A stretch of 41,217 nt of DNA from Eubacterium sp. (GTDB lineage Bacteria; Bacillota; Clostridia; Lachnospirales; Lachnospiraceae), in assembly GCA_022794015.1 (NCBI GenBank), contig JAAWDZ010000007.1, positions 1-41,217 on the forward strand. The letters run 5' to 3'. Shown here piece by piece: positions 21,009-41,217 of this stretch. Position 1 is the first letter of the stretch, and each line of letters opens with the position of its first letter. Both the position numbers and the translations under genes were made by a program. Below the pieces are notes generated by a model that saw nothing but the letters and a program-made list of their open reading frames with translations, had not been told where the DNA came from and ran no database searches.

Positions 21009-21832
21009 AATGCTTCACCTGCTTTCTCCAAATCTTTCATAGCGATTTCAAATTCAGCGTCGTTTGGCGCCTTGCCGTGCCAGCTTACCTCATCCTCCAT
21101 AAAAGAAACGCCCTGCCCTTTCACCGTGCGTGCAATTATTACCGTTGGCTTTCCTTTTACAGTCCTGGCTTCTGCAAACGCTGCGGCAATTTCTTCAAAT
21201 TTATGGCCGTCAATGTTAATGGTATGAAAGTGAAATGCATTGAATTTCTCATCTATAGGATACGGAGAGCAGACATCCTCTATGTATCCGTCAATCTGAA
21301 GCCGGTTATTGTCTACAATTACAACGAGATTGTCTAATTTATGATACCCGGCAAACATCGCTGCCTCCCAGATTTGGCCTTCCTGGATCTCGCCGTCGCC
21401 GCACATCGCATAAACGCGGTAGTCCCTGCCATCCATCTTGGCTGCCAAAGCCATGCCGACTGCCACAGAGAGCCCCTGGCCCAGAGATCCTGTCGACATA
21501 TCTACGCCAGGCGTCTGTTTCATGTCCGGATGCCCCTGTAAGTAGCTTCCCGTATGACGCAGTGTCATCAGATCCTCTACCGGGAAAAATCCGCGAAAGG
21601 CAAGCGCCGCATAAAGCCCCGGTGCCGTATGTCCTTTTGACAGTACAAAACGATCGCGCTCTTCCATACTCGGATTCTTCGGATCAACGTTCAGCTCTTC
21701 GAAATATAAATACGTAAAAAGCTCCGCTGCAGACAAAGATCCCCCTGGATGCCCTGCCCCTGCACTGTGTAACGATTTGATAATCTCTTTCCTGACATTC
21801 AAAGTCATCTTCTGAAGTTCTGGTATGTTCAT
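21005..21832 (-). CDS. Transketolase, N-terminal subunit (ThDP-binding)
   Basis: Thiamine-diphosphate-binding half of transketolase, 275 residues. Motifs in order: AGHPGGSLSAAE (substrate/ThDP histidine), SKGHTAPGLYAAL, TGSLGQGLSVAVGMALA and the GDG...N metal/ThDP motif (GDGEIQEGQIWEAA to VDNN). It pairs with the overlapping C-terminal subunit. It is preceded by a GGGAAAAAGG stretch and by a 25-codon ORF with transaldolase-like first residues. A TATAAT with extended -10 at 21947-21952, formed at the end of palindromic element C, is the likely promoter. Confidence 0.95.
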   Translation of the reverse strand: MNIPELQKMTLNVRKEIIKSLHSAGAGHPGGSLSAAELFTYLYFEELNVDPKNPSMEERDRFVLSKGHTAPGLYAALAFRGFFPVEDLMTLRHTGSYLQGHPDMKQTPGVDMSTGSLGQGLSVAVGMALAAKMDGRDYRVYAMCGDGEIQEGQIWEAAMFAGYHKLDNLVVIVDNNRLQIDGYIEDVCSPYPIDEKFNAFHFHTINIDGHKFEEIAAAFAEARTVKGKPTVIIARTVKGQGVSFMEDEVSWHGKAPNDAEFEIAMKDLEKAGEAL

Positions 21833-21844
21833 ATCCTTTTTCCC

Positions 21845-21922
21845 TCACTGTCTATCCGTATAATTGTTGTGCCGTACGCTGTGCTGGCATGGCTGGTTTA
21901 CAGTATCAATAAAAAATCTCAT
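21845..21922 (-). pseudogene. 25-codon ORF with transaldolase-like N-terminus (remnant or leader peptide)
   Basis: ATG at 21922 follows a good AAAGGAAG ribosome binding site and reads MRFFIDTVN, almost the invariant MKFFIDTAN start of TalC/Fsa-type transaldolases. The rest (QPCQHSVRHNN...) does not resemble that family, and the frame stops at 21845, 12 bp before the transketolase start codon. In related bacteria transaldolase and transketolase are often neighbours. This may be the stub left after deletion of a transaldolase gene, now possibly acting as a coupling or leader peptide. The match covers only nine residues, so chance cannot be excluded. Confidence 0.4.
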
Positions 21923-21946
21923 CTGTTCTTCCTTTCTCTCGTTCGT

Positions 21947-21952
21947 ATTATA
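21947..21952 (-). promoter_or_regulatory. Extended -10 element for the transketolase operon
   Basis: Minus strand TGT followed by TATAAT, located at the gene-proximal end of palindromic element C. No -35 of quality at 17 bp. The promoter may be partly supplied by the repeat itself. Confidence 0.5.
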
Positions 21953-22094
21953 ACAATTCAGGCAAGCTGCCCTGTTATATGCTTCGCAATGCACACCAAC
22001 CGCCTGTCTGGCAATTTGCCGCTGACTGACCCTGGGATTTTTATGCATACTGCATAAAAACACATCACGGGATAGCGGCTGTCTGAACTGTTAC
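21951..22094. repeat. Palindromic intergenic element, copy C (long form)
   Basis: Left end TAACAATTCAGGCAAG and right end GTCTGAACTGTTAC form imperfect terminal inverted repeats. Inside is a perfect 10-bp hairpin TTTTTATGCA / TGCATAAAAA (22038-22060). Both subterminal regions match copy B, while the interior is about 85 bp longer. It fills most of the 378-bp gap between transketolase (21832) and the tRNA (22211). Confidence 0.65.
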
Positions 22095-22122
22095 TTAGTA
22101 TTTTCATTTCCCTTGATACTAT

Positions 22123-23979
22123 TCATTCCCACACATTATAGATCACAGTATGAAGTTTGTCAAAAAGTATCCTTGCTTTTTTAAAAAAATATGTTATACT
22201 TAATATCAGCGGGGCATTGGCGCAGTTGGGAGCGCGCAACATTCGCATTGTTGAGGCCGTGGGTTCGAATCCCATATGCTCCACCAGAAAGTTCTTACTC
22301 CAACCCTTACCAAAAAAATTCGATAAACGGTTGGGTATTGATGATAGGAAGCTCGTGAGCAAATGCTCACGAGCTTCTTCGTTGCCTTTCTGAGAATTAT
22401 ATTGAGCCAATCCATCCTTCAGTGATTCTACCAACATAGTAAATGGTTCGGCAAACTCTGCCGTCACCTGTCCATCAGGGCCGACCAGCAGGCGTGTAAA
22501 AATAGCCTGATTCATTAGTTTCTTCATTTTATCGTTAGCCAAACGATAGGTTGTACCACAATCAGAAATCAGCTCTATTGCATCATCCAGTCGTTCAATA
22601 ACTGTAGTAAATGTGTTTTCATAAGTATTCATCTGGTGGTGAATCGCAGCAAGCTGTTTGGCTATTTTCTGCTGTTCGCTTTTCAGGAGGTCAAGTGGGA
22701 TAGCGTCATTATAATGCGCTTCCAACAGTTTCTTGCGTTGCCGTTCTAATTTATCTTTTTCCCGACGCAGTCCGTCCAATTCTGTCATGTATTTATCACG
22801 TTCTTTCTCTATATTCTGTTTTAGCCAGTCTTCCAGATAGTTGGCTATTTGCACAGGGAAAGAGTATTTGTCATAAATCTGCTCCACCTGCTGTTCGACA
22901 TCCGTGATTAATACTGCGCGCTGTTTGCAGTCAGTTCGTTTACTATGCCGTCCCCCACAGACAAAATACGGATAGTAAGTGCCTGTATGGGATTTCGTAT
23001 AGTTAATGAACATTCGTGAGCCACAGCTTTTGCAGAACACGCTGCCCTTTAAGAAGTGTGGGTGTTCCCGGGTACGTTCGCCATTAACATGCGATTCCAG
23101 AATATCCTGCACCTGCTGCCAGGTATCAGGAGTTACCAGAGCCGGATGCGTACCGTCGTATTCTACGCCCTGATACGGCACGATACCTTTATAGTAAGGG
23201 TTTATCAGTATGCTGTTTAGAGATTTTTTATTGATGGGCTGGGATGGGATTCTGGGCGTGGCACGGGTAGTCAGCCCACAGGCTGCCAAATGCTCCGCCA
23301 AATCCTGTACTGTCCAGTTGCCAGTCGCATACTCCTCAAATGCCAGCTTAACCAGTGGCGCGCGCTCTTCATCCAATATAACAGTCCGTTCTTCGCGCCC
23401 TTTATCGTCTGTGCGCCGGATATTGAGGTAGCCAAGTGGGGCACGACTGGGCGTCCCGCCTCCTTTGACTTTTTCGTTCAGTCCTTTTTTGACTTCGTTT
23501 GCCAGATTCTGCGAATAAAACTCAGCGATAGAACTCATAATGCCATGGAGCAGCATTCCTGCCGGAGTGTCATCAATGCTTTCTGAGGCAGATACCAGTT
23601 GGATGCCACATTCACGCAATGTGCGCATAATGTCGATATCGTCGCCACGGTTTCTGGCAAGACGGTCGACTTTATGTACAATTACGTAATCCACCCGGTC
23701 AGCATTTTCTTTGACATATTCCAGCATCTTCTGTAATTCCGGCCGGTCTGCAGATTTAGCAGAAGTCCCCCGGTCAACAAATTCCTTGCCGACCATTGCT
23801 CCCATAGATAAAGCCTTCTTCCTATTAGCCTCTCGCTGGGCAGGGATAGAGAATCCTTCATCTGCACCTCCACCACGTTCTGCCTGCCCACGTGTTGATA
23901 CACGGAGGTAGGATACGGCAAATTTCGGGGTCATGGCAGTCGCTAATGACTGTAAAGGATTATCTGATGTTTGACTCAT
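22123..23979 (-). CDS. Large serine recombinase (integrase of the element)
   Basis: Large serine recombinase that integrates and excises the element. The resolvase domain begins YLRVSTRGQ with catalytic S28 and includes DRGTSAKSADRPELQ and KVDRLARNRGD. The recombinase domain covers about 180-290, a zinc ribbon FCKSCG...FVCGG...DCKQ about 310-355, and a coiled coil about 390-455. Start at ATG 23979 is set by AAAGGAGG. The frame does not stop at the element's end: about residues 565-590 are the antisense of tRNA-Ala and the last about 30 are host DNA. The natural C-terminus is therefore probably near 555-565 or formed differently in the excised circle. A 13-bp palindrome (22348-22377) also falls inside the tail. 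Sequence style resembles recombinases of actinobacterial and clostridial gut elements. Confidence 0.93.
   Translation of the reverse strand: MSQTSDNPLQSLATAMTPKFAVSYLRVSTRGQAERGGGADEGFSIPAQREANRKKALSMGAMVGKEFVDRGTSAKSADRPELQKMLEYVKENADRVDYVIVHKVDRLARNRGDDIDIMRTLRECGIQLVSASESIDDTPAGMLLHGIMSSIAEFYSQNLANEVKKGLNEKVKGGGTPSRAPLGYLNIRRTDDKGREERTVILDEERAPLVKLAFEEYATGNWTVQDLAEHLAACGLTTRATPRIPSQPINKKSLNSILINPYYKGIVPYQGVEYDGTHPALVTPDTWQQVQDILESHVNGERTREHPHFLKGSVFCKSCGSRMFINYTKSHTGTYYPYFVCGGRHSKRTDCKQRAVLITDVEQQVEQIYDKYSFPVQIANYLEDWLKQNIEKERDKYMTELDGLRREKDKLERQRKKLLEAHYNDAIPLDLLKSEQQKIAKQLAAIHHQMNTYENTFTTVIERLDDAIELISDCGTTYRLANDKMKKLMNQAIFTRLLVGPDGQVTAEFAEPFTMLVESLKDGLAQYNSQKGNEEAREHLLTSFLSSIPNRLSNFFGKGWSKNFLVEHMGFEPTASTMRMLRAPNCANAPLILSITYFFKKARILFDKLHTVIYNVWE
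22173..22200 (+). promoter_or_regulatory. Promoter of tRNA-Ala
   Basis: TTGCTT (22173-22178), 16-bp spacer, then TATACT (22195-22200) preceded by TGT (extended -10). Transcription would start about four bases before the mature 5' end at 22211. It lies on the host side of the element, so integration leaves tRNA expression intact. Confidence 0.7.
22211..22286 (+). tRNA. tRNA-Ala (anticodon CGC)
   Basis: Full cloverleaf of 76 nt including an encoded CCA end. The acceptor stem GGGGCAT / ATGCTCC contains the G3:U70 pair that specifies alanine. The anticodon stem CAACA / TGTTG encloses loop TTCGCAT, giving anticodon CGC (codon GCG). The T arm is GTGGG-TTCGAAT-CCCAT. The gene is complete and sits at the left edge of the integrated element, whose recombinase frame runs antisense through it. 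Confidence 0.97.
22287..22377. other. Left junction region of the element (candidate attL)
   Basis: Directly after the tRNA CCA end. CCAACCC (22300-22306) and GGTTGGG (22329-22335) form a dyad typical of serine-integrase half sites around a T/A-rich centre. A perfect 13-bp palindrome GAAGCTCGTGAGC / GCTCACGAGCTTC with an AAAT loop follows at 22348-22377. The exact crossover dinucleotide cannot be read from one junction. Confidence 0.4.
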
Positions 23980-29811: not shown

Positions 29812-30783
29812 TTAGCACAGCATGTTCCGGTCGCCACTCTCCACGATGAGGTGTTCCAGCTCTTCGCAGGTAATTACTGCAAATAGTTTGGGGAGTTTAT
29901 CGAACGCCTCTTTGAGGTGTCGGATGAGTTTTTCTTTCCGGGTAACGTCCGGCACAATCCAGACGGTGAGTGGAAACATCCCGGATTCTTCCTGCTCCAG
30001 GCCGGAACGGTAATAATCATGGTATCTCCAGCATTTCTCAATCACTTTGGCTGGGGATTCCGTATCCAGGTCAATTTCCAGAAAATAACGGTCTTCATAT
30101 TCTTTGGTCACAACCGATACGTAAAGGTCTGGCTTGAGAGAGAGCGATACGCCGACGTTCGTGTATGCCCTCCAGCACTCCGGCTCTAATTGCAAGGAAG
30201 CAATTTCTGGTTCATGCTCCCGGCAGATTTCTATCAGCTGGATAGCAGACTCGGCAACGGCTAATGAGTGCGCCAGATAATGGGGGCTGGGCTCGAAGAA
30301 GCGCCGTATGGGGTGCGTCTCATTACTGCTTAAGCGAAGTAGCCTTTCTCCGGCATGGGTCAGATACCAGATAAGAGAACTTGACCCTGCCCGTACTCCA
30401 CCAATCCTCCGGGACAGGCTGCTGACCAATCCAAACTCACTGAGCTTTTTGAGGGTACGGCTGGCTGCCCGGAGTCCGGCAGAGGGGTTGGCTGCATCGG
30501 TAAAGAGCAATTTCTGCGCCTGCCCGGTCATGAGATAGCGATATTTTTGTACAGCGTGGAGCAGCTCCCGGTCGCGCGCGCCTAAACGGCTGTCAATCTC
30601 CAGTAGCTGTTTCTTGGATACACGCTGAGGTGTCTGTCCATCAGTAACAGGGGTGCCTCCCGTAATAGAAGAATCCGTAGCAGGTATGCTAAAGGAATCT
30701 CGCACGTTAAACTGCGCAAAGTCCCGTATTCCGGGCTTTTCCGGTTGTGGTTTCTGGTCGCCGTTCGTCAGTCGGTTCGTCAT
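29812..30783 (-). CDS. Replication-relaxation family protein
   Basis: 323 residues matching the replication-relaxation family of Gram-positive plasmids and integrative elements. A disordered N-terminus (1-60) precedes a winged-helix-like region (LGARDRELLHAVQKYRYLMTGQAQKLLF, then SRTLKKLSEFGLVSSL...WYLTHAGERLL). The C-terminal part has HSLAVAESAIQLIE, LKPDLYVSV and YFLEIDLDTESPAKVIEKCWRY, a nuclease-like D...ExD pattern. It is thought to act in replication or transfer initiation, and could stand in for the missing classical relaxase. It overlaps the coupling ATPase gene by four bases (ATGA). Confidence 0.8.
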   Translation of the reverse strand: MTNRLTNGDQKPQPEKPGIRDFAQFNVRDSFSIPATDSSITGGTPVTDGQTPQRVSKKQLLEIDSRLGARDRELLHAVQKYRYLMTGQAQKLLFTDAANPSAGLRAASRTLKKLSEFGLVSSLSRRIGGVRAGSSSLIWYLTHAGERLLRLSSNETHPIRRFFEPSPHYLAHSLAVAESAIQLIEICREHEPEIASLQLEPECWRAYTNVGVSLSLKPDLYVSVVTKEYEDRYFLEIDLDTESPAKVIEKCWRYHDYYRSGLEQEESGMFPLTVWIVPDVTRKEKLIRHLKEAFDKLPKLFAVITCEELEHLIVESGDRNMLC

Positions 30784-32945
30784 GGTCTTTTCTTCCTCCC
30801 GATGTTTGTATCGCCGGGGTTTTCCTCGGCGTTTTTATGGTTAATAGCAAAAATGTTGAGATATTCCTCCTCGGCCTGTTCTGCCGGGATGCCGTAGGCA
30901 GCCTGGACTTTTGCTTTAAGGTCGATGGCATCGCGCAGGGCAGGAGGTGGTGGCAGGGTCCTGCCTTGTATCCATCCAGTATTCCTGCCATTAGACTGGA
31001 ACGAGGTATAAATCTGGTAACGGGGCAGTGCCATAAAATCTTCGGCTGTGAGTTCCGGCGCCATAGCTGCCATGTCTTTAGCGTCCTTAGATTGCAGTCC
31101 GAATATTATCTTGTTCCTCGAGTTGGCGTCTATCCCGGAACGGATATTGATGGGCAACTGGTCGCGATACTGATGCGCCAATGTCAATCCAACCCCTAAT
31201 CCTCTGGCCTGCGCCAAAGCATCAGACAAATCTGTAGGTAAGCTGAGATAGTCCTGGAGCTCGTCGATAAAGATAGAAACAATGTGCCGTTTCTCGGCTG
31301 GAATACCAGCGCGAGATAATGCCAGCGTCCAAGTTAAGCCGACAATTAGACTACCCAGCAACCTAGCCGTACTGGCTCCAATCTGCCCACGATTCAAAGG
31401 AACTAATACAATCCGGCGCTTATAAAACAAGTCTGTCAAAGAAAACTTTGGCTTTGCCTGTCCTAACACATTCCGAAGCCCTGGCCGTAAAGTTAGCTGG
31501 CGCAGTTTGTTGAGCACTGGAGAAATCTGTTGTTTCTTCTCGGTATCACGCAAAGCCTCAAACTGCTCCCAAAAAGGACGAAGTGCTATCCGGTCTTTGA
31601 CCTTGCTGGTGATTCTGCGTCGGAAATGCTCATCGGTCAGTAGTGGCAATAACCACAAAAGTGTAGAATTTTCTGCCTCTACCAAAGTCAATAGGGCAGC
31701 CGTTAGTACATCTTGCGTGTAAATTCCCCAGCTATCGCTAAAAATTTCCTTAAGTACCGAGAGGATAGCATCGGCAATCAGGGACGGGTTGCCGTAATCC
31801 TTAAACGCCAGTGGGTTAAACCCACATGGGCAAGGGTCTGATGGATCGATAATTACGACATCACCCACGCGTTCTTCGGGAATTCTCATTAGTATACTGC
31901 TAACAAGCTCTGCCTTCGGATCCAATACGAGGATGCTTCTTCCGGCGTTTATGTCTGCCAGAATTAGGTGCAACATTGCAGTGCTTTTCCCCGATCCTGT
32001 AGGCCCTAAACAGACCGTATGTTCGAGTGAATCTTTTGGAGAAATGCTCAGTCTTTTGGGATTTATGGCATCCATGCTGACAGCAAAACTACGGTCCATT
32101 TTCTGGTTAGTTGGGCTATAATACCAAGGAGGTGGCAGGGTAAGTTTTGGATGCAGACCCGGCGTTCCCGGCAGTTCTTCCTCCCCGGCAGCTGTGCATA
32201 AGAAGTTTACAGCTTCTTTTACCGATAGTCGCAGAGGAAAGTGCCAGGGTACATGAGCGTTGTTAATGTGGTCGGGCTTTATATTTTCTTCCCGTATCCG
32301 TACACCTGCTGCCTCCAGTACCTTAAACGCGCTAAGGATACTATGTATCCGGGCATTGGCATTTTCTCCGGCCACACCGATACGGATGACGGCTTGGAAA
32401 ATATGTTGCTCGGCTTTTTCTCGCACCGTTTTACGGCTCTCAGCTGAAGCTTTCTGTACGTCGCCAAGTAGAACCTGTAGCCAAGTAGCATTTGGGTCGG
32501 TCAGGTTAGTTGGTACTGGAGATGGAGCATAAGCTCTCCCCAGTACAATCTGTACCACTATTTCCGTGCCACCTTTGTCTTCTACGAGTGCCGCCAACCC
32601 TGCCCGGGTAACGGCGTCGGTAATATCAGTTCTGAGGGAAAGCGTCGGGTGGCTAATCCTCAGTTGCTGGGCAGTACCAACTGATGTACGTGCTGTTTCT
32701 TCCATAGCATGGAACTGGATGTTGCCATGGGCTTTGATGGCTTCTTCTATGCTGGCAATATATTTCTTATCTGCACATAAAAGGTACTCAATATGCCCGT
32801 TTTTACTTCTGGTTTCCCAGATAACTGCGCCCCTTGGCGTCAGTGCTGCCAGATGAGATAAGGTTTCCCATACGGTTTCTATTTTGTAAGGTCTCGTCCA
32901 GATGATTTGCTTCCAGACGGGATTTTCTATGATATGTTTAGTCAA
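30780..32945 (-). CDS. VirD4/TraG-like coupling ATPase
   Basis: Conjugative coupling protein that would deliver the relaxed DNA to a type IV secretion channel. Using the TTG start at 32945 (721 residues), Walker A GPTGSGKST is at 314-322, followed by SILVLDPKAEL. Walker B is in HIVSIFIDELQDYL and a TraM-recognition-like C-terminal region follows (GVGLTLAHQYRDQL...RNKIIFGL). The first 300 residues are a family-specific N-terminal domain without predicted membrane helices. I prefer TTG because GGAAGGAG is eight bases upstream; the ATG at 32990 has no site and lies inside the preceding gene. It may need the small membrane protein at 32971 for anchoring. Confidence 0.88.
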   Translation of the reverse strand: MTKHIIENPVWKQIIWTRPYKIETVWETLSHLAALTPRGAVIWETRSKNGHIEYLLCADKKYIASIEEAIKAHGNIQFHAMEETARTSVGTAQQLRISHPTLSLRTDITDAVTRAGLAALVEDKGGTEIVVQIVLGRAYAPSPVPTNLTDPNATWLQVLLGDVQKASAESRKTVREKAEQHIFQAVIRIGVAGENANARIHSILSAFKVLEAAGVRIREENIKPDHINNAHVPWHFPLRLSVKEAVNFLCTAAGEEELPGTPGLHPKLTLPPPWYYSPTNQKMDRSFAVSMDAINPKRLSISPKDSLEHTVCLGPTGSGKSTAMLHLILADINAGRSILVLDPKAELVSSILMRIPEERVGDVVIIDPSDPCPCGFNPLAFKDYGNPSLIADAILSVLKEIFSDSWGIYTQDVLTAALLTLVEAENSTLLWLLPLLTDEHFRRRITSKVKDRIALRPFWEQFEALRDTEKKQQISPVLNKLRQLTLRPGLRNVLGQAKPKFSLTDLFYKRRIVLVPLNRGQIGASTARLLGSLIVGLTWTLALSRAGIPAEKRHIVSIFIDELQDYLSLPTDLSDALAQARGLGVGLTLAHQYRDQLPINIRSGIDANSRNKIIFGLQSKDAKDMAAMAPELTAEDFMALPRYQIYTSFQSNGRNTGWIQGRTLPPPPALRDAIDLKAKVQAAYGIPAEQAEEEYLNIFAINHKNAEENPGDTNIGRKKRP

Positions 32946-32970
32946 GAACGCCCACTCCTTCCTTTTCTTT

Positions 32971-33168
32971 CTACCATAACCCCGAATCATGTTTGTGCTT
33001 CCAAATACGATAAATAATAATGCTGATGATGATAATCAGGGCAATGGCGAGCAGTACTGGCCATACTTCCAGAATCCAATATGCAGCGAGATTGATGAGG
33101 AAGGCGCTTACGGCCAGCATAAAAGCGAACTCTAATATTTTGGTGATTAATCTTTTTGGTGGTTCCAA
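32971..33168 (-). CDS. Small two-helix membrane protein
   Basis: 65 residues: short basic N-terminus (EPPKRLITKI), two hydrophobic helices (about 12-32 and 34-53) and a basic tail RIWKHKHDSG. Starts at TTG 33168, eight bases after GGAGG; a nearer ATG (33172) is out of frame and too close to the site. It lies directly upstream of the coupling ATPase and may anchor it in the membrane (inference from position and from the soluble appearance of the ATPase). Confidence 0.65.
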   Translation of the reverse strand: MEPPKRLITKILEFAFMLAVSAFLINLAAYWILEVWPVLLAIALIIIISIIIYRIWKHKHDSGLW

Positions 33169-33183
33169 TCATGATTCCTCCTT

Positions 33184-33768
33184 TTAAAGGGCTTTAGCAC
33201 TGTATTTAGGCACAGGGTAGCCGGGGATAATAATGTCGCTATCGATTTCGTTACCCCAGACGTCCCAGCCGGGCTGCCGACGGCGAGCAAAGAGCTCAAG
33301 ATAAGGGCCCGGACTGACTCGTTCGACGATTTTATGGATTTCTTCAGGTTTATGGGAGTGGTCCTGCACGGGAAAGACACCAAAATTTATCTGGTTTTTA
33401 CACAGAACAGGTGTTTTACCTCTAGTTCCCAAGAGAATGTGCTCTGTACAATTTCTCAGATAGGTTCCGAGCCCCATCCGAAGCTTAGCCCATGTAAATA
33501 TGGAACGTGGCGTGAATCCCCATGCTTCCAGAACATCATAGCCGTATCGTAGAGTCCCATTTGTGACCCAGAGCCAGCAGTGGCTGTTATCTTCTGCCAA
33601 GTCTTGTATTGGCATACTCTTAATTTGTTTTATAGTCATTAAATTATAATGATTAATTGCTCCGTAGGTTCCTTTCTGCATAACATCCCATGGTGGGTCG
33701 ATGAGCAGGGTAGGGTAGCGTTTACTTAAACAGCTTTTATTTTCCGTACCGTTAATTATTTTTTGCAT
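33184..33768 (-). CDS. MT-A70 family DNA N6-adenine methyltransferase
   Basis: 194 residues with the DPPW catalytic motif (24-27) after a short N-terminus, then HCWLWVTNGTLRYGYDVLEAWGF, FTWAKLRMGLGTYLRNCTEHILLGTRG and a C-terminal SPGPYLELFARRRQPGWDVWGNE block. This is the standard order of MT-A70-like phage and element methyltransferases. It would methylate adenine N6. No restriction partner is present, so with the cytosine enzyme it probably provides anti-restriction protection. A GGAAG site lies just before the ATG. Confidence 0.93.
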   Translation of the reverse strand: MQKIINGTENKSCLSKRYPTLLIDPPWDVMQKGTYGAINHYNLMTIKQIKSMPIQDLAEDNSHCWLWVTNGTLRYGYDVLEAWGFTPRSIFTWAKLRMGLGTYLRNCTEHILLGTRGKTPVLCKNQINFGVFPVQDHSHKPEEIHKIVERVSPGPYLELFARRRQPGWDVWGNEIDSDIIIPGYPVPKYSAKAL

Positions 33769-34022: not shown

Positions 34023-34250
34023 TTAATCTTCATTATGAAGCTCTGTTTTTACATTCTTCTGGCAAGCCCTGCGAATCATTGCCCTGTGCGATTCCATATA
34101 GTCCCATTCCATCAAAAAATAATCTTGCATGAAGCGCTGCATCAGTTTTTGCATAGCCTTCTTCCTGCGATAATACTTGTAGAGCCAATAGCACAGGCTA
34201 CCAACAATAACCGTCGCGCTTATTGCCGTTGCGATTAACTCTGATGTCAT
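34023..34250 (-). CDS. Small single-span membrane protein
   Basis: 75 residues: one N-terminal membrane helix (about 4-26, ATAISATVIVGSLCYWLY) followed by a strongly basic YYRRKKAMQKLMQRFMQ segment and a charged tail. GGTGGTGATT precedes the ATG. It follows the 104-residue gene by 6 bp in the same operon. No family recognised; such proteins are common in transfer modules. Confidence 0.6.
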   Translation of the reverse strand: MTSELIATAISATVIVGSLCYWLYKYYRRKKAMQKLMQRFMQDYFLMEWDYMESHRAMIRRACQKNVKTELHNED

Positions 34251-34256
34251 AGTTAA

Positions 34257-34571
34257 TCACCACCTTTCTAATCTGGTCAGGGCATTTTTGGTGTACATTG
34301 CAATGATGGCCCTGTAGCAGTTAATAGCATCCGGGTTCATGCTGGCGAGCTGGTCGGCTGTCATAGCTAACATGCCGATGTTTTCCATAGAGCCTTTGGC
34401 GAGCTGGGCTGAGAGCTTGTCTCGTCCGGAATCCAGCATGGCTCGCTCCAACATGGTATTAGCCTCGTATCTGGCCATCCAGCTGAGGTTGCGTGGTGTT
34501 GGTGTGTAGTTAGTGAGATTTTCTGTGATGGCATCCTCGTAGCCATTTGGATAAATGTTTGCTTGTTTCAT
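34257..34571 (-). CDS. Hypothetical protein, first gene of the element's minus-strand operon
   Basis: 104 residues, soluble, mostly helical after residue 30 (ARYEANTMLERAMLDSGRDKLSAQLAKGSMENIGMLAMTADQL). AAAGGAGC is well placed before the ATG. It is divergent from the STAND gene, with both control regions packed into 34572-34769. No family recognised with confidence. A small hairpin (GTAGC / GCTAC) lies about 20 bp upstream. Confidence 0.6.
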   Translation of the reverse strand: MKQANIYPNGYEDAITENLTNYTPTPRNLSWMARYEANTMLERAMLDSGRDKLSAQLAKGSMENIGMLAMTADQLASMNPDAINCYRAIIAMYTKNALTRLERW

Positions 34572-34626
34572 AAGTCTTGCTCCTTTCTGTAGCGTTTGCT
34601 ACGATAACATAATTAGTAAGTTTTTC

Positions 34627-34656
34627 TTGAACAGCACAAAATGCGTATGTTATAAT
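34627..34656 (+). promoter_or_regulatory. Strong promoter of the STAND gene
   Basis: TTGAAC (34627-34632), 18-bp spacer, TATAAT (34651-34656) preceded by TGT (extended -10). Start near 34663, giving a leader of about 105 nt that contains the inverted repeat AATCTTA / TAAGATT (34663-34695). A near-consensus promoter suggests steady expression, as expected for a sentinel protein. Confidence 0.82.
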
Positions 34657-34769
34657 ATGGAAAATCTTATTGTTGCATCTGCTGTTCTTAAGATTAATTA
34701 TAGTTTCAAAAAAACGGACCGGGTTGTCCTTGTGTTGTCAAAAAAGTTGTCATGGAGGTGATGAGTACT

Positions 34770-37049
34770 TTGAGTGGATTATCTTATAGTGAATTTGACC
34801 AGCTTCTTTTTAGTTTTTGTAAGGATAGTACCAAAGAAGAGTTTTCTAGGACTCTGCTAAAAGCCGGTCTGAAAGAGAGCGATTATAACTGCATTGATCA
34901 AATGGACAAATTTATAATATCAAAGATGCGTACTGGCGTAAGAAATGTAACAAAAGCAATCGTAGGATTTTATTGTGACCAATATGCCAATGAACGGACG
35001 GCAAAATATTTTCAGTCCCATATACTATGTCAAATAGGAGAGGATAGTTACCTCAATCTGATTAAAAAGATTAATGAATTGATTTCCAACGATGGTTCTA
35101 TCGAGGTTGATCAAGCCAATAAATTTTCTGATTATTCCAAAGCAGCAAGAGATTTAATCAAGTCTGCAATGGCAATAGGTGATAAGAATAGAGAGGAACG
35201 CACTGCAAAAGCGACTAAGAAAAACGAGGCATTAGAGGCAATGTCGAAGTATCTGGCCGAAGTATTTGTTTACTGCATTCAACATAAAAACAAACCGAAA
35301 GAGGTACTTTCTTTACCACTTCATAACTTAATGTCTCAAAATACTCAATTTACTGGACGTAAAGAAATATTGCAAGAACTCTCTCAGAATTTTTGGGAAG
35401 GTAGCCATATTCAAATTTTATCGGGTATGCCAGGCGTCGGAAAAACACAGATAGCTTTGCAGTTTGCATACCAAAATATACATGAGTACAGTGTCATATG
35501 GTGGATCAATGCTGAGAGTGAAGCCACTATGCTAGAATCATGCAACGCCTTTTTGTGTTGCAAAAATATTTCCAATTCAGACTATACTGCCCCCAAATTT
35601 TGTGATTGTTTCAACCAATGTGAGGATTATTGGCTTTTGATATATGATAACGTAGATTTTTCATCTGCAAAAAGAAAACAGATGCTTGACAATTACATTC
35701 CTAAAAACCGAAAAAAGGGGAATATATTAATAACATCTCGCTGTAGAAATGATTTTTATGGTATATCCCCAATTGATGTGGGCGCTTTTGCCCTACATGA
35801 GGCAATATGCTTTATCCGAGATAATTTAGAAAAAAGCCAAATCAAAGGGGATAAATACTTGGCAAGACGGCTAGGGTTTTTACCTCTGGCCCTAAGTTAT
35901 GCGGTTGCCTATATTAAACAAACTCCGTCTTGTAACTGCTCAGATTATCTAAAGAAGTTATCAAATAAAGGCGTTAAGCTCTTTGAGGTTAGTGACGACA
36001 TTGGTCTTGATTACTACAGAAAGACAGTCCGTGCTACATTTATGATTTCTATTGAAGAATTTGAGGAGAAATCTAAGAACGGAGACAAATTCATGTCGGC
36101 TGTTCTAGAATTTATTTATGCAACTGCTTATTTTCCACCCAATAACATTGACTTAAACCTCATAACCATGTTTTGCGATAATTTCTCTACCACGCTAAAC
36201 GAAATTTTACATGACTCCTCCCTGTGTGATAAGCTAGTGCGCATATTGATTTCTCGTTCACTCTTTTACGTTGTGGCGACTTCTGCTGCCGAGTACCGCC
36301 ACGAATACAATGACCAAATACTAGGCATGCATCGTTTGTTTCAGGAAATTCTCATGAATGAAATGCCACCAATCTTTCCTAAAGAATGGGATACAATTTA
36401 TGCTCCTTTTCCACATAAATCACGTATAACACCCTGGTTGCCAAAAACAATAACAGGTGAAACTACATATTTTACTAGTGAAGACATATTAAGCCTTCTC
36501 CCACTTCTTTACCAAAAAATACAACTTTTACGCCTAAATCCTGGAGCAATGAAGAATACTATTAGAATAATCGAAAATATAGAAAATTTTTTTGCAAATA
36601 TGAAAGACGGCCAAATAATCATACCTCTCACCTTTTTAATAGAACGTGGGTACGACTTGCTGAATATGGATTTATCCACACACATTAAGGGGCTTCAGGG
36701 ATATTCGCGTCATCTTTTATATTTATATCTGGATTTCTTACGATTAATTATTCGAATTATATTACTTAATGACGGCCATTTAGTCGGACTTCGCAATTTG
36801 GATGAATATAATGAAGAGTCCACATCCGCAATCATCGATACTTATTCCAGTTTATTTTTTTCATTAAGTACCCCTGATCACGCTACGGAACAAGAATTTG
36901 ACGATAACAAGGGTAATTTCCGTATATATATTCAAGAAATACTTGCTCGTGAGGGGCTCACTATTACTAATGGACTATTAGCCAATATACGAGAATCAAC
37001 GAATAGTATACATGATGTAAATAAGAACGATGAAACAGGCGAAATATGA
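34770..37049 (+). CDS. NB-ARC/STAND NTPase, candidate defence sensor
   Basis: 759 residues (numbered from TTG 34770). Region 1-190 is helical and unrecognised, the place where effectors sit in this superfamily. The NTPase module follows: FTGR (194-197), Walker A GMPGVGKT (219-226), WWINAE, Walker B WLLIYDNVD (288-296), ILITSR sensor (319-324), LGFLPLAL (368-375, the GLPL motif) and MHRLFQEIL (520-528, MHD-like). Residues 535-759 are helical without obvious TPR or WD repeats and may be the sensor. GGAGGTGAT, fully complementary to the 16S end, sits seven bases before TTG; the in-frame ATGs at 34752 and 34761 are poorly spaced. The gene is AT-rich compared with the element genes and stands alone on the plus strand. 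Known relatives act in anti-phage defence or signalling; the ligand here is unknown. Confidence 0.85.
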   Translation: MSGLSYSEFDQLLFSFCKDSTKEEFSRTLLKAGLKESDYNCIDQMDKFIISKMRTGVRNVTKAIVGFYCDQYANERTAKYFQSHILCQIGEDSYLNLIKKINELISNDGSIEVDQANKFSDYSKAARDLIKSAMAIGDKNREERTAKATKKNEALEAMSKYLAEVFVYCIQHKNKPKEVLSLPLHNLMSQNTQFTGRKEILQELSQNFWEGSHIQILSGMPGVGKTQIALQFAYQNIHEYSVIWWINAESEATMLESCNAFLCCKNISNSDYTAPKFCDCFNQCEDYWLLIYDNVDFSSAKRKQMLDNYIPKNRKKGNILITSRCRNDFYGISPIDVGAFALHEAICFIRDNLEKSQIKGDKYLARRLGFLPLALSYAVAYIKQTPSCNCSDYLKKLSNKGVKLFEVSDDIGLDYYRKTVRATFMISIEEFEEKSKNGDKFMSAVLEFIYATAYFPPNNIDLNLITMFCDNFSTTLNEILHDSSLCDKLVRILISRSLFYVVATSAAEYRHEYNDQILGMHRLFQEILMNEMPPIFPKEWDTIYAPFPHKSRITPWLPKTITGETTYFTSEDILSLLPLLYQKIQLLRLNPGAMKNTIRIIENIENFFANMKDGQIIIPLTFLIERGYDLLNMDLSTHIKGLQGYSRHLLYLYLDFLRLIIRIILLNDGHLVGLRNLDEYNEESTSAIIDTYSSLFFSLSTPDHATEQEFDDNKGNFRIYIQEILAREGLTITNGLLANIRESTNSIHDVNKNDETGEI

Positions 37050-37057
37050 TGAATAAA

Positions 37058-37244
37058 TTGACAAAAGTAATTATGTATGCTATCTTGATATAAGTTATCA
37101 ACAGATAATTACGAACATTAATATACGCACTAGGTTTCCATGGTTCGCCTAATATCTCCTCCAGACAAAGGAAATTATTACAGAAATTGCCAATCCTCAA
37201 TTTTCGAGGATTGGTGATACTGTAATAATTTTTATTATTGGAGG
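37058..37244 (+). promoter_or_regulatory. Promoter and structured leader of the 225-residue gene
   Basis: TTGACA (37058-37063), 17-bp spacer, TATCTT (37081-37086). The leader then contains CCTCCA (37158-37163), complementary to TGGAGG of the ribosome binding site (37239-37244). Between them is a long stem: AAATTATTACAG / CTGTAATAATTT (37172-37183 and 37220-37231) enclosing CCAATCCTC / GAGGATTGG (37190-37198 and 37206-37214), followed by TTTTT. The stem may be the terminator of the STAND gene, an attenuator for the next gene, or both. Confidence 0.6.
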
Positions 37245-37250
37245 TGCATT

Positions 37251-37928
37251 ATGAGACGATACGACTACAACGTTGAACCATGTTCCCCGTATTTAATCCA
37301 GAGTGAAGGTATGAACCTTTCTTATAACGACAAGAAAGGCAAAGAGGAGATTCGCAAATTGGCGATTACTCTTTCGAACTTCGAACTTGATGTATATGAT
37401 TGCATAACTTCGAGTATGAATCACCCGACCTCCCTCTGTGATAGCTGTCTAATTGACGACCATTCATTCGATGACAGTAACCATGATTATAGTAGCGAAG
37501 ATGGTGATTCGATTTTTTTTCGTCAAAATTATAAGTGTATTATGCATGGGGAAAACGCAGATTGGATTCTATGTGGTATTGGACTTTGGTTTGATTGCAT
37601 TAAGTTTCAGTATTGTAATTGTAGCATTAAAAATGCATGTGACAGGAAGAGACACGGAGGAACTGTTTATATCCGACAGGCTAAAAACCTTGTAAAAGAT
37701 CTCAAATTTGTAGCAAAAGTACCATTGCGCCAAGGGGATACTTATGAGAAATATGGGCTCTGGTGGGCTGCAGACGACTGGAAGTTCAGAGATGGCACAC
37801 TCGGGAATGCGTTTACGGTCATTGAAACATCGATGCAGGGAGAACATTGCACTTTAGAATACTATCGTCCGGAAGGTAGGCGACATTATCTTTGCAAAAT
37901 TCGCCAAGGGGTACATACCTTCGAGTAA
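37251..37928 (+). CDS. Unrecognised cysteine-rich protein, 225 residues
   Basis: No family recognised. The protein is soluble, acidic in the middle (SFDDSNHDYSSEDGDS) and has more than ten cysteines, with pairs CDSC and CNC and nearby His that could bind metal. The C-terminal half (GTVYIRQAKNLVKDLKFVAKVPLRQGDTYEKYGLWWAADDWKFRDG) contains Trp-rich turns. GGAGGTG is six bases before the ATG. It follows the STAND gene on the same strand but has its own promoter and ends at its own terminator (37933). Similar AT-rich base use suggests it came with the STAND gene. A partner, ligand or regulator of the NTPase is possible but unproven. Confidence 0.65.
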   Translation: MRRYDYNVEPCSPYLIQSEGMNLSYNDKKGKEEIRKLAITLSNFELDVYDCITSSMNHPTSLCDSCLIDDHSFDDSNHDYSSEDGDSIFFRQNYKCIMHGENADWILCGIGLWFDCIKFQYCNCSIKNACDRKRHGGTVYIRQAKNLVKDLKFVAKVPLRQGDTYEKYGLWWAADDWKFRDGTLGNAFTVIETSMQGEHCTLEYYRPEGRRHYLCKIRQGVHTFE

Positions 37929-37932
37929 AAAT

Positions 37933-37956
37933 AACCTCGCTCATATGGGCGAGGTT
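37933..37956 (+). terminator. Intrinsic terminator after the 225-residue gene
   Basis: AACCTCGC (37933-37940) pairs with GCGAGGTT (37949-37956), followed by TTC and a T-rich stretch. It lies 4 bp past the TAA stop. Confidence 0.85.
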
Positions 37957-38005
37957 TTCATTTATTGTTCAATAATAATCTTTCTAGACCTCTGGCCGGT
38001 CAAAT

Positions 38006-38035
38006 TTGAGCCAGAATCAAGGAATGTGATACAAT
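38006..38035 (+). promoter_or_regulatory. Promoter of the attenuator leader
   Basis: TTGAGC (38006-38011), 18-bp spacer, TACAAT (38030-38035) preceded by TGA (extended -10). The expected start is 38040-38042, exactly at the first arm of the leader stem. Confidence 0.7.
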
Positions 38036-38039
38036 AAGA

Positions 38040-38171
38040 GTGTCTTACTCTTATAAATAATCAGATGTTTTGTTTTGCTATTGGTTCGCTCAAAGCGGCA
38101 TCGCATAGTAATCAATAGTGGAATGCATCTGATTGCGAATAGGAGTAAGACACCTTGCGGTGTCGCTTTTT
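38040..38171 (+). ncRNA. Leader RNA with antiterminator/terminator geometry
   Basis: The 5' end GTGTCTTACTC (38040-38050) is perfectly complementary to GAGTAAGACAC (38143-38153). Inside, AATCAGATG / CATCTGATT (38059-38067 and 38126-38134), CTATTG / CAATAG (38078-38083 and 38113-38118) and CGCT / AGCG (38087-38097) stack into one long stem. The 3' arm of the closing stem overlaps a second hairpin, GACACC-TTGC-GGTGTC (38149-38164), followed by GC and TTTTT (38167-38171). The two structures exclude each other, the hallmark of a transcription attenuator. A 17-codon ORF lies inside. No known riboswitch or T-box motif was recognised. Confidence 0.65.
38065..38118 (+). CDS. 17-codon upstream ORF in the leader
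   Basis: Reads MFCFAIGSLKAASHSNQ and stops with TAG at 38118. Its start codon lies in one arm of the second stem and its stop in the third stem, so ribosome movement would open these stems and shift the balance between the closing stem and the terminator. No strong ribosome binding site precedes it, so translation is unproven. Confidence 0.35.
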   Translation: MFCFAIGSLKAASHSNQ

Positions 38172-38209
38172 GTAAGGATGCCCAAATAAATAATCATAAG
38201 GAGTCGTCT

Positions 38210-38587
38210 ATGGATAATAACGAGATAAAAAAGCATACTACTCGTCAAGAGATGGTTATTGGTTTAAGTTTCATAATCGGATTAATCTTAAGTATTATTA
38301 CCTTTATTCTTGCTGCGCGACTTTTTTCTACTTCTGGGCCAGAAGCCAATGCCCCAGCGCTTCTGTTCTTTCCTTTTTTAATTCTCTTAGCAGACCCACT
38401 CGGACTAATTATGGCTATATTATCTATAGTGTATCTTAAAAAGAACTATCACAAACCAAGTACCCTCACGCTTGTGCTCGGAGTAATAGGGGCTATTTTA
38501 TGTTCAATTCCAATCCTGCTCACAGCGATTATGTTTGTCGGTAATTATAGTACGTATAACAATAGCTGGGATTTCTTTTTTCTATAA
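38210..38587 (+). CDS. Small multi-span membrane protein under leader control
   Basis: 125 residues with three to four hydrophobic segments (about 14-36, 44-71 and 81-108), a short charged N-terminus (DNNEIKKHTTRQE) and an aromatic tail (NNSWDFFFL). It has the general look of DUF4190-type proteins, but I would not assign it. Start at ATG 38210 after AAGGAG; the longer open frame upstream covers the leader RNA and is not coding. No transporter motif is visible. The attenuator in front suggests an inducible response, perhaps to an antibiotic or a metabolite. Confidence 0.7.
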   Translation: MDNNEIKKHTTRQEMVIGLSFIIGLILSIITFILAARLFSTSGPEANAPALLFFPFLILLADPLGLIMAILSIVYLKKNYHKPSTLTLVLGVIGAILCSIPILLTAIMFVGNYSTYNNSWDFFFL

Positions 38588-38779
38588 TTCCACTTAAAAA
38601 TATAAAATATGCTTCCTGATGTTGAAATTCTCGTAGATTCATCAATCCAGCTTTGACCCCTAAAAGGAACCAATATGTTTTGTATATCGACTCCTTATAA
38701 TTGGGAAACAATTTATTTCGGAAAATCTAAATTATAGCTTTGTATTTATAGGTTAAATAATCGGTCGCAAGTGTTTCTT

Positions 38780-41217
38780 TTATCTAATCTTTATCTTCAC
38801 ACTCGCCTTCCTGTTACTTCCATCCGTAGCCATTGCAGTAATCTTGACGGTTTTACCTTTGCCAGCCTTCTTGGCCGTTACTCTACCTTTGTTGGTTACG
38901 GTAGCATATTTCTTATTACTACTCATCCATTGCGGGGTTTTGTTTGCGCCTTTTGATGCTGTCACTTTGGCTTTGAGGCTTATGGATTTGCCAACCTTCA
39001 GGTTCTGGGTCTTTTGTCCAGAAATAGTAATCTTCTTTACAACACCCTTCATGCCCTTGATTTTATAGGATGCTTTCTTTCCACTCCCATCATTAGCTGT
39101 AGCAGTGATTGTAACGGTTTTACCAGCTCCGGCTTTCTTGATGGTTACAGCGCCTTTACTATTTACTGTGGCATATTTTGTGTTACTAGATTTCCAAGTA
39201 ATAGATTTATCTGTGGCATTGGATGGTGTTATAAAAGCTTCCAGTGTGATTTTCTTACCGGTGGCTATTTTGTGGGAGAGGCCGGTGATAGCTATTTTCT
39301 CCACTTTGACGGTCGTATCTGTCTGGTTGCTGGAATTGCCTGGATTTGGCTGGCTTGTTCCGGGAGTGCTTGGGTTGCCAGGAGTGTTAGTGTTCGTGTT
39401 GCCGGGGTCTGGATTATCGGGATTTTCTACTTTGTCTACAACAGGTATTTCTGTCCCATTTCCATCTGCTACTACTTCTGTTTTAGCGTCCCCATTATCA
39501 TTTAAGACAAACAGCTGGACCTCGGATGTTTGAATACTTGTACCCTCCGGAGAATTATCTCTTGGCTGGACAGAACTAATCATCTGCTTGCCCTCAGTAA
39601 GATTGACATTAGCAAATGTTTTACTGTTAACTACGGACTGGTCGCTCGTTCTGATATTTTGCACTACGTATTCCATCGTACCGTCACTAATAGCAGTTAT
39701 CTTAAATGTATATGCGTCATTATCCAGTAAGTAAATATCTTTCTGGCCATCAGTTATGGATATGTAGATTTTATCACTATTGATATAATCTACAATATTA
39801 TTTGTTATTTTACCTGCGAGCTGCCCCTTGGCGTCGTAAATTTCCACATTTACAGGACAGTGTATACCTATAAGCCCTAAGATATTTGCTCCAACATCAC
39901 TCAGAAGTTTAACTCGTCGCCAATTTGCAGCCCTGTCTAAGGCTGCTTTCGCTTCGTCTTGTGTTTTATACTCGGATATATCCTTTTCATCACGTAAATA
40001 TTCTAGGTAAGCTGCTTGATTATGGGCACCCGTACACATTTCTAGTCCTTCATAATCATTCCAAATATTGCTATACCAATAACTTTGACCAAATTTATTC
40101 CAGATATTGCCTAAAATTGTCCGTGGCACCCAAGATACAATATCTTCAGCATCGGCTATATTAAAAATATTTTCATAAGAATCTACTTTGCTGTCAGAGA
40201 AAAGTCCTACATCAGGACAAGCAAAAGTATAAGCATAAATGTCAGTCTGCGAAACCCCACTATCTACTAAACGCCCAGCTAAAATATTTGCCACTGCCGC
40301 CCCTCGGCTAAAACCAGTGATTACGAAATCCGTGTTGGAAAAATCTGTTGTTCCAAGGAAACCAACCATTTTATAATAGAGTCCGTTTGCTGCCTGCGAA
40401 AAGCCCTGATGTTGACCGGTAGTGATATCAATCTTAGTATTTAAATTACTGAGCCATTCTATTGCATCTTCGGTGCCCCGGGCCACAATCAATACTAAAT
40501 TTTTCCCATTATCTAGATTCTTTTTCGCCATTCCATAACCAACCCATATTCCATCCCACATATTGTAGTCCGTAATCGAATCAGAATCATTAAAGCCAAA
40601 GCTATTGAAGGTAGCTTTCATATTGTTTTCATCGTAAACGGAGTTACACATAGCAATCAGCATATGAGCTAATTGTGGATTATAAACAGTAGCATCTGTC
40701 TTTCTCATACATACTTCTAGAGGGCGATCAAATCCTTCGTAACCATCAGGTGGAGAAACGTCTTTACTGGTATAAACCTTGTATTTAAAAGGGTCATAAT
40801 CTGGAGCTGTACTGTTGAAATGAATGGTCGCAGTGATAAATGCGTTGTTTCTAACTCCAATTTCTATATTTTGCCAACTGGTTTCATCACTCGTATAATA
40901 TACATCTGTCAAGTTATCACAGCCAGCAAATGCACTGTTTCCAATACTGGTGACGCTATCCGGGATATTAATACTGGTCAGTTTACTACAACCATAGAAT
41001 GCAGAGACTCCAATGCTAGTGACGCTATCCGGGATATTAATACTGGTCATCCTACTACAATCTTCGAATGCACAGATTCCAATACTGGTGACGCTATTTG
41101 GGATATTAACGCCGGTCAGTTTACTACAACCATTGAATGTATAGTTTTTTATACTAGTAACGCCATCTGGGATATTAATGCTAGTCAGATTGGAACAATC
41201 CTCGAAAGCACCCTCAC
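38780..41217 (-). CDS. BspA-like LRR protein with class-3-lipase-like domain and Ig-like C-terminus (5' end cut off)
   Basis: The frame is open to the window edge; 811 residues are visible and the start lies outside. Order: BspA-type leucine-rich repeats (four full 23-residue units, fragment residues 7-98), then a Lipase_3-like alpha/beta-hydrolase domain (about 170-420) with nucleophile motif GFSRG (301-305, Ser303), likely Asp355 or Asp358 in ADAEDIV and His398 in TGAHNQA. An Ig/beta region follows, then a Pro/Asn/Thr-rich linker (NPDPGNTNTNTPGNPSTPG) and two Big_2-like domains ending VKIKIR. The ATG at 41050 is an internal Met in a repeat, not the start. Probably a secreted or surface protein that combines binding and ester hydrolysis; the substrate is unknown. 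No LPXTG anchor. Confidence 0.86.
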   Translation of the reverse strand, partial: EGAFEDCSNLTSINIPDGVTSIKNYTFNGCSKLTGVNIPNSVTSIGICAFEDCSRMTSINIPDSVTSIGVSAFYGCSKLTSINIPDSVTSIGNSAFAGCDNLTDVYYTSDETSWQNIEIGVRNNAFITATIHFNSTAPDYDPFKYKVYTSKDVSPPDGYEGFDRPLEVCMRKTDATVYNPQLAHMLIAMCNSVYDENNMKATFNSFGFNDSDSITDYNMWDGIWVGYGMAKKNLDNGKNLVLIVARGTEDAIEWLSNLNTKIDITTGQHQGFSQAANGLYYKMVGFLGTTDFSNTDFVITGFSRGAAVANILAGRLVDSGVSQTDIYAYTFACPDVGLFSDSKVDSYENIFNIADAEDIVSWVPRTILGNIWNKFGQSYWYSNIWNDYEGLEMCTGAHNQAAYLEYLRDEKDISEYKTQDEAKAALDRAANWRRVKLLSDVGANILGLIGIHCPVNVEIYDAKGQLAGKITNNIVDYINSDKIYISITDGQKDIYLLDNDAYTFKITAISDGTMEYVVQNIRTSDQSVVNSKTFANVNLTEGKQMISSVQPRDNSPEGTSIQTSEVQLFVLNDNGDAKTEVVADGNGTEIPVVDKVENPDNPDPGNTNTNTPGNPSTPGTSQPNPGNSSNQTDTTVKVEKIAITGLSHKIATGKKITLEAFITPSNATDKSITWKSSNTKYATVNSKGAVTIKKAGAGKTVTITATANDGSGKKASYKIKGMKGVVKKITISGQKTQNLKVGKSISLKAKVTASKGANKTPQWMSSNKKYATVTNKGRVTAKKAGKGKTVKITAMATDGSNRKASVKIKIR
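40922..41197 (-). repeat. BspA-type leucine-rich repeat units, 69 bp each
   Basis: Four tandem units at 41197-41129, 41128-41060, 41059-40991 and 40990-40922, each encoding a 23-residue repeat of the form CS-LTSINIPDSVTSIG--AF. DNA similarity between units is high, so recombination between them could change repeat number. The array probably continues beyond the window. Confidence 0.88.

Follow-up and report, generated by a model that had tools for sequence, protein, structure and literature searches.

A candidate NLR-like sensor and its small-protein neighbour in the cargo slot of an integrative-element family

What is an NLR-like STAND NTPase doing in what is probably an integrative element, and does the small gene that follows it belong with it? 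The stretch considered, hereafter the window, is the 41,217 nucleotides of contig JAAWDZ010000007.1 (assembly GCA_022794015.1; Eubacterium sp., Lachnospiraceae). The preliminary description had reported a STAND NTPase gene followed by a gene for a 225-residue protein, an observation that holds, and had proposed that the two, as cargo of a mobile element, formed a new defence or element-control module. We prefer, at a probability of roughly 0.6, to read the NTPase as an NLR-like sensor for immunity or exclusion that an integrative element has among its cargo. New here is the placing of both genes in one cargo slot beside the MT-A70 methylase gene of an integrative-element family. Judged by sequence, the window NTPase is probably a variant of NLR-like STAND sensors with an unfamiliar N-terminal domain, beside a small protein that probably belongs to a slot-specific family.

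The NTPase gene (34752..37049, plus strand) encodes 765 amino acids counted from the first ATG at 34752, starts at 34761 or 34770 being likelier. Residues 187-540 (35310..36371) form the switch: Walker A, Walker B, sensor arginine, GLPL and MHD-like motifs are present, with key positions conserved among relatives, and a fold search with the predicted structure returns NB-ARC and winged helix, so that by motifs and fold this is a STAND NTPase of the NB-ARC (NLR-like) class, as had been described. Its Pfam NB-ARC score of 16 bits (E 0.0073) lies below the gathering score of 23.5, and a slot relative on another contig (L037; such handles denote the contigs of relatives) lies above it at 43.6 bits. 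The best family match is FxSxx_TPR, or fxsT (NCBIfam NF040586; E 7.4e-52, residues 195-540), yet its 176.9 bits fall short of the curated cut-off of 300, and no C-terminal TPR was found with Pfam at E up to 1; Pfam does find TPR in the slot STAND L026. The putative sensor, residues 541-765 (36372..37046), matches no repeat family, in keeping with the earlier impression of a C-terminal part free of repeats, and no similar C-terminus was found among the relatives compared. Identity to the ATPases of plant and animal NLRs and apoptosomes (NRC1/2, Apaf-1) is 14-16%, and the N- and C-terminal parts of the window protein differ from theirs.

Relatedness to other STANDs points back to the slot. Among the best 80 of at least 452 stretches confirmed in a scan of genome contigs for NB-ARC relatives, the two best matches, L025 (7e-61) and L026 (5e-44), together with L037 (2e-35), all lie there. 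A maximum-likelihood tree covers the top 45 NB-ARC sequences, without duplicates, that matched over 250 query residues or more with an E no higher than 1e-15; in it the five slot STANDs (window, L025, L026, L037 and L118) make up one side of a branch with support of 99/96, found also in 99% of 200 bootstrap trees. The tree is midpoint-rooted only, and because the branches of L037 (1.74, flagged) and the window (1.45) are long and both sequences deviate in composition, the branching order inside the clade is unsure. L025 is labelled uncultured Lachnospiraceae, L026 Treponema, and L118 is a contig of a viral collection. L037 (NZ_PRLM01000003.1), labelled Candidatus Nanosyncoccus (Saccharibacteria, Saccharimonadota), also holds the element family, an occurrence for which cross-phylum transfer or contamination is possible; the labels under which the family has been seen thus comprise Lachnospiraceae, Treponema and Saccharibacteria, besides the viral collection. 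Searched as a single sequence, the window NTPase found no match in viral contigs, and it had none in phages.

It is at the N-terminus that the slot STANDs part company with their kin. Related STANDs from outside the slot carry TIR_2 in eight of the ten N-termini scanned and SIR2_2 in one, the tenth being without a match, whereas the window N-terminus has no Pfam match to TIR or SIR2. Residues about 8-180 (34773..35291) form instead a helical domain, here ‘type A’, matching no Pfam family and no PDB sequence; the preliminary description had left it as an unassigned helical region, and no known non-defence domain has emerged there. The domain is common to the window, L025 and L026, and a further copy is on L133. 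Its profile, compared with 89 sources that have a relative of the NB-ARC, matches three N-termini only, those of the window, L025 and L026, which are themselves rows of that profile. Across 179 other genomes, a four-row profile that includes L133 finds matches in six, some of them partial (E 1.6e-9 to 8.7e-4): on STAND proteins in four, one of them checked with Pfam and the others 30-57% identical to it; on one further protein without family assignment; and, over part of the domain only (E 1.6e-9), at the head of an ABC-3C protein (L205; CTD6 2.2e-41, with an adjoining MC2 gene at 2e-45). Profile searches gave type A no sensible Pfam match and no PDB match better than E 0.14, and since NB-ARC dominates the fold search of the full-length model, its fold is without assignment. 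Taken alone the window N-terminus had no match in plasmids or in 249 other genomes, and a viral scan with STANDs like that of L206 had none.

The slot STAND of L118 bears a different helical domain, ‘type B’, which also heads proteins of a small-protein module considered below and a 333-residue protein beside Gabija genes (E 5e-4 and 0.001, no shuffle in 1000 scoring as high for either match). The latter protein (L117:4194-5195; E 5e-4) is possibly an additional Gabija-associated protein in these elements. The N-terminus of L037 is weakly of type B (9/1000 shuffles as high). No link between the types was found, the window N-terminus scoring -0.6 bits against the type B model with 732 of 1000 shuffles as high. 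These helical modules occupy the position that enzymes, TIR or SIR2, take in relatives, and with a clade that shares one in the TIR position, signalling by an enzyme-less bacterial NLR becomes a testable question.

How might such a protein work? In the resting state ADP would sit in the switch formed by NB-ARC and winged helix, until the fast-changing C-terminal part recognised something made by a phage or by a rival element; exchange of ADP for ATP would follow, and then oligomerisation of the NTPase. The N-terminal helical domains, so clustered, would serve for recruitment where relatives have a TIR or SIR2 enzyme, and a partner drawn to this platform would be switched on and either stop growth or block the invader, with the small protein a plausible, not an obligatory, candidate for that partner. 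That the helical N-termini act as adaptors is suggested by analogy with effector-associated domains: as described in PMC7159879 and PMC8195603, EAD and Death-like adaptors are small, helical, without a recognised enzyme and N-terminal on STANDs, as the window domain is, although no Pfam match and no sequence link to such a domain was found. No second copy of the domain was seen beside the window gene, in which it differs from those adaptors.

Several strands favour a sensor: the NB-ARC fold with its motifs, the single slot clade, and the TIR or SIR2 on nine of ten related N-termini. To these may be added the type A domain heading an ABC-3C protein of the CTD6/MC2 type, where an SMC-like ATPase and a middle component take the place that NB-ARC has in the window protein, and the anti-phage activity of comparable STANDs. 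In PMC9122126, TIR-STAND-TPR proteins, with TIR exchanged for SIR2 or a nuclease in others, are described among the anti-phage proteins of the P4-satellite hotspot; they and the window NTPase are alike in a central STAND switch, in carriage by a mobile element in a defence slot of changing content and in an N-terminus that varies among relatives. They differ in that the window N-terminus is a helical domain that Pfam does not recognise and no TIR, SIR2 or nuclease, in that no C-terminal repeats were found in the window protein, and in that for it defence is a predicted role.

The neighbourhood in sister elements bears on a role in defence. Relatives of the element were found through the VirD4-like protein, through the MT-A70 protein and, separately, through NB-ARC; with identical and near-identical contigs merged, 17 distinct elements, the window included, have about 2.4 kb or more visible beyond the MT-A70 gene (excluded were L114 and L135, which break off at that gene, L121-L123, which break off within VirD4, and L141, whose VirD4 is 30% alike and 3.9 kb away). 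Five slots hold an NB-ARC STAND. A kinase with TPR and a subthreshold match to a STAND-type ATPase occupies one (L115/L130), Gabija one (L117/L120; GajA 7.9e-288, GajB 1.1e-256), a type I restriction endonuclease with a JAB-E1 gene one (L133) and a JAB-E1 gene another (L132); PADLOC E1-E2 matches of these JAB-E1 genes are partial. In five slots the small-protein family occurs and no NB-ARC STAND does (L111, L112, L119, L124, L146), and in three nothing was assigned (L113, L116 and L125, whose slot proteins had no family-library scan). The STAND count is inflated because it was the NTPase that led to L025, L026 and L037; the 13 elements other than the window found through their backbone hold one NB-ARC STAND, one kinase with STAND-like match, one Gabija, two JAB-E1 genes and five small-protein families, three being unassigned. 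In all seven sister elements measured, cargo G+C content is below that of the backbone. The Gabija, kinase-STAND-like, type I restriction endonuclease and JAB-E1 genes in sister slots favour defence, and to this extent the proposed defence module remains plausible; the slot, anchored as it is by the MT-A70 gene, is also a defined place to mine for defence genes. Neither the slot nor the N-terminal domain was recognised in the literature searched, which is no claim of their absence from print.

Other details of these slots may be recorded. In L132:640-3398 and L133:5810-8805 a JAB-E1 (ThiF) gene and then an AAA-like gene directly adjoin the MT-A70 gene; in L130:3-4931 the kinase has a neighbour of 473 amino acids with a subthreshold HTH_3 match; and 3' of the Treponema slot STAND a small open reading frame (L026:8386-8703) is, by reading, ParE/RelE toxin-like.

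The immune or exclusion sensor has points to answer. Within the E limit of 1 no PADLOC model fits the window NTPase, the sole match being Cas3fv at 3.7e-4; PADLOC includes Avs models, and none of these was matched. L025 and L037 have no PADLOC match and L026 has a TPR model only. No enzymatic effector is recognisable in the window NTPase, its putative sensor has no usable structure model, and only one of the 13 backbone-found elements has an NB-ARC STAND as against five with the small-protein module. Further, STAND proteins also act as transcription regulators.

Is the small protein part of the system? Its gene (37251..37928, plus strand, 225 amino acids) begins after a gap of 201 bases, with its own promoter-like site (37058..37086), and a terminator-like hairpin (37933..37956) marks the end of the cargo; the NTPase gene too has a promoter-like site upstream (34627..34656, TTGAAC-18-TATAAT with the TG of an extended -10), such sites numbering 16 against 14.8 +/- 3.7 expected and so not exceeding chance. 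Alone the small protein matches no family library and no PDB entry, and its predicted structure (mean predicted local distance difference test score, pLDDT, 40.4) is too poor for use. Single-sequence searches of 14,907 open reading frames gave at best a phmmer E of 0.043 (L037) and a blastp E of 0.32 (L124). A profile built on four proteins encoded in the slot (L111, L112, L119, L124) gives L146 an E of 1.3e-7, L037 one of 6.6e-4 and the window protein one of 0.032, noise beginning at 0.97; with L146 and L037 added, two rows chosen from the results of that first search, the window protein reaches 4.2e-5 and the next reading frame 2.3. With any of three models, none of 2000 shuffles attained the real score. 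Because the match is restricted to residues 64-125 and the better score rests on preselected rows, the window protein is only probably a distant member of the family, a homology made more credible by the shared location of the members, next to the MT-A70 gene in a single slot. Single-sequence searches gave no accepted match in plasmids, phages, viral contigs or genome contigs, and across 180 genomes the family profile found only the window and a site in L003. That site was rejected, being by reading antisense to a PpiB-like frame; likewise L015, with stops in frame, and L004, where the match (residues 17-98 or 18-98) is by reading inside a hydrogenase-like protein. Other matches of that range in long open frames, not each read, were presumed to be like L004.

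The family occurs in seven of the 17 elements. The preliminary description had staked its proposal beforehand on homologues of the small protein occurring beside such NTPases, and a probable relative does so in L037, its gene head-to-head with the STAND gene; a fixed pair, though, does not stand. No family member was found in the DNA examined of L025, L026 and L118, three of the five STAND slots, and five of the seven members sit with other genes, so that pairing, in 2/5 STAND slots and 2/7 family slots, occurs and is not obligatory. The commoner company forms a recurring slot module, small protein, helical-N-terminus protein, DUF11-like protein with a GGRP stretch (L146:5045-8026; L119:405-3764; L124:2233-5551; L136:5054-7766; L111:465-2929). 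In L112, L119, L124 and L146 the family gene adjoins that of a type B-headed protein, strongly hydrophobic in a segment in all three measured (L112 as L136, L124, L146), followed by one further protein with DUF11 above cut-off in both cases scanned (L119, L146). In L111 the two are apparently fused (573 amino acids), with DUF11 just below cut-off and a weak type B score (3/1000 shuffles as high). Possibly the module signals to the cell surface. Might STAND and small gene, then, be chance neighbours, independent cargo of the slot, the latter a remnant of the three-gene membrane/DUF11 module? The five members with membrane/DUF11-type genes, the separate promoter-like site and the gap suit such an origin, which we hold possible and somewhat unlikely, a probable family member adjoining a slot STAND in L037 as well.

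A quite different role would be control of the element: like MalT or AfsR, the STAND would regulate transcription, responding to a signal and governing excision or transfer, while its helical N-terminal domain bound DNA or some protein of the element. This seems improbable: a scan of eight type A N-termini, with E allowed up to 1, reported no helix-turn-helix family, other cargo of the slot comprises Gabija and a type I restriction endonuclease, and eight of 17 elements, being without an assignable NB-ARC STAND, other STAND-like gene or listed defence gene, evidently do not need a STAND.

More speculative still is an elaboration of the immune sensor in which this NLR-like clade swapped its enzyme for helical recruitment domains traded among STAND and ABC-3C proteins, to give an element-specific immune system whose recruited partner would be the fast-evolving small-protein family, serving either the STAND or, in sister elements, a membrane protein linked with a DUF11 protein of the surface; a single partner would then have two delivery machines. 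Least probable is a dedicated two-gene system, with the small protein either as effector, freed or activated by the STAND, or as antidote to it: since no TIR or SIR2 domain is present in the window STAND or in those of L025 and L026, a partner in trans would be expected, and a probable family member adjoins the STAND in the window and L037, but the pairing frequencies already given, and a small protein without family or PDB match and with a low-confidence model, argue otherwise.

That the pair is cargo of a mobile element, as first described, is borne out by its surroundings and by the same slot in sister elements. Leftward of it, all on the minus strand, lie two element reading frames that border the slot, their relatives adjoining it in other elements too (104 amino acids, 34257..34571; 75 amino acids, 34023..34250), the anchoring MT-A70 methylase (33184..33768; Pfam 2.5e-27), a VirD4/TraG-like ATPase known by Pfam and relatives (30780..32990), a replication-relaxation protein (Replic_Relax, PF13814, 9.9e-36; 29812..30783) and a serine recombinase (22123..23979; Resolvase 4.3e-32, Recombinase 1.2e-12). 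DUF5049, GGACT and Amidoligase_2 proteins and a cytosine methylase are also on that side. With recombinase, replication-relaxation protein and VirD4-like ATPase all present, the window is taken to carry an integrative and probably mobilizable element. No direct repeat of 12 bases or more common to 21801-22800 and 34501-41217 was found, nor a syntenic site in the single congener examined. The C-terminal end of the recombinase gene overlaps a tRNA-Ala gene on the plus strand (22211-22286, within 22123-22286), which may mark the integration site. Beyond the cargo, on the minus strand and cut by the window end, 38780-41217 encodes a surface-type protein with BspA-like leucine-rich repeats, a class 3 lipase and Big_2.
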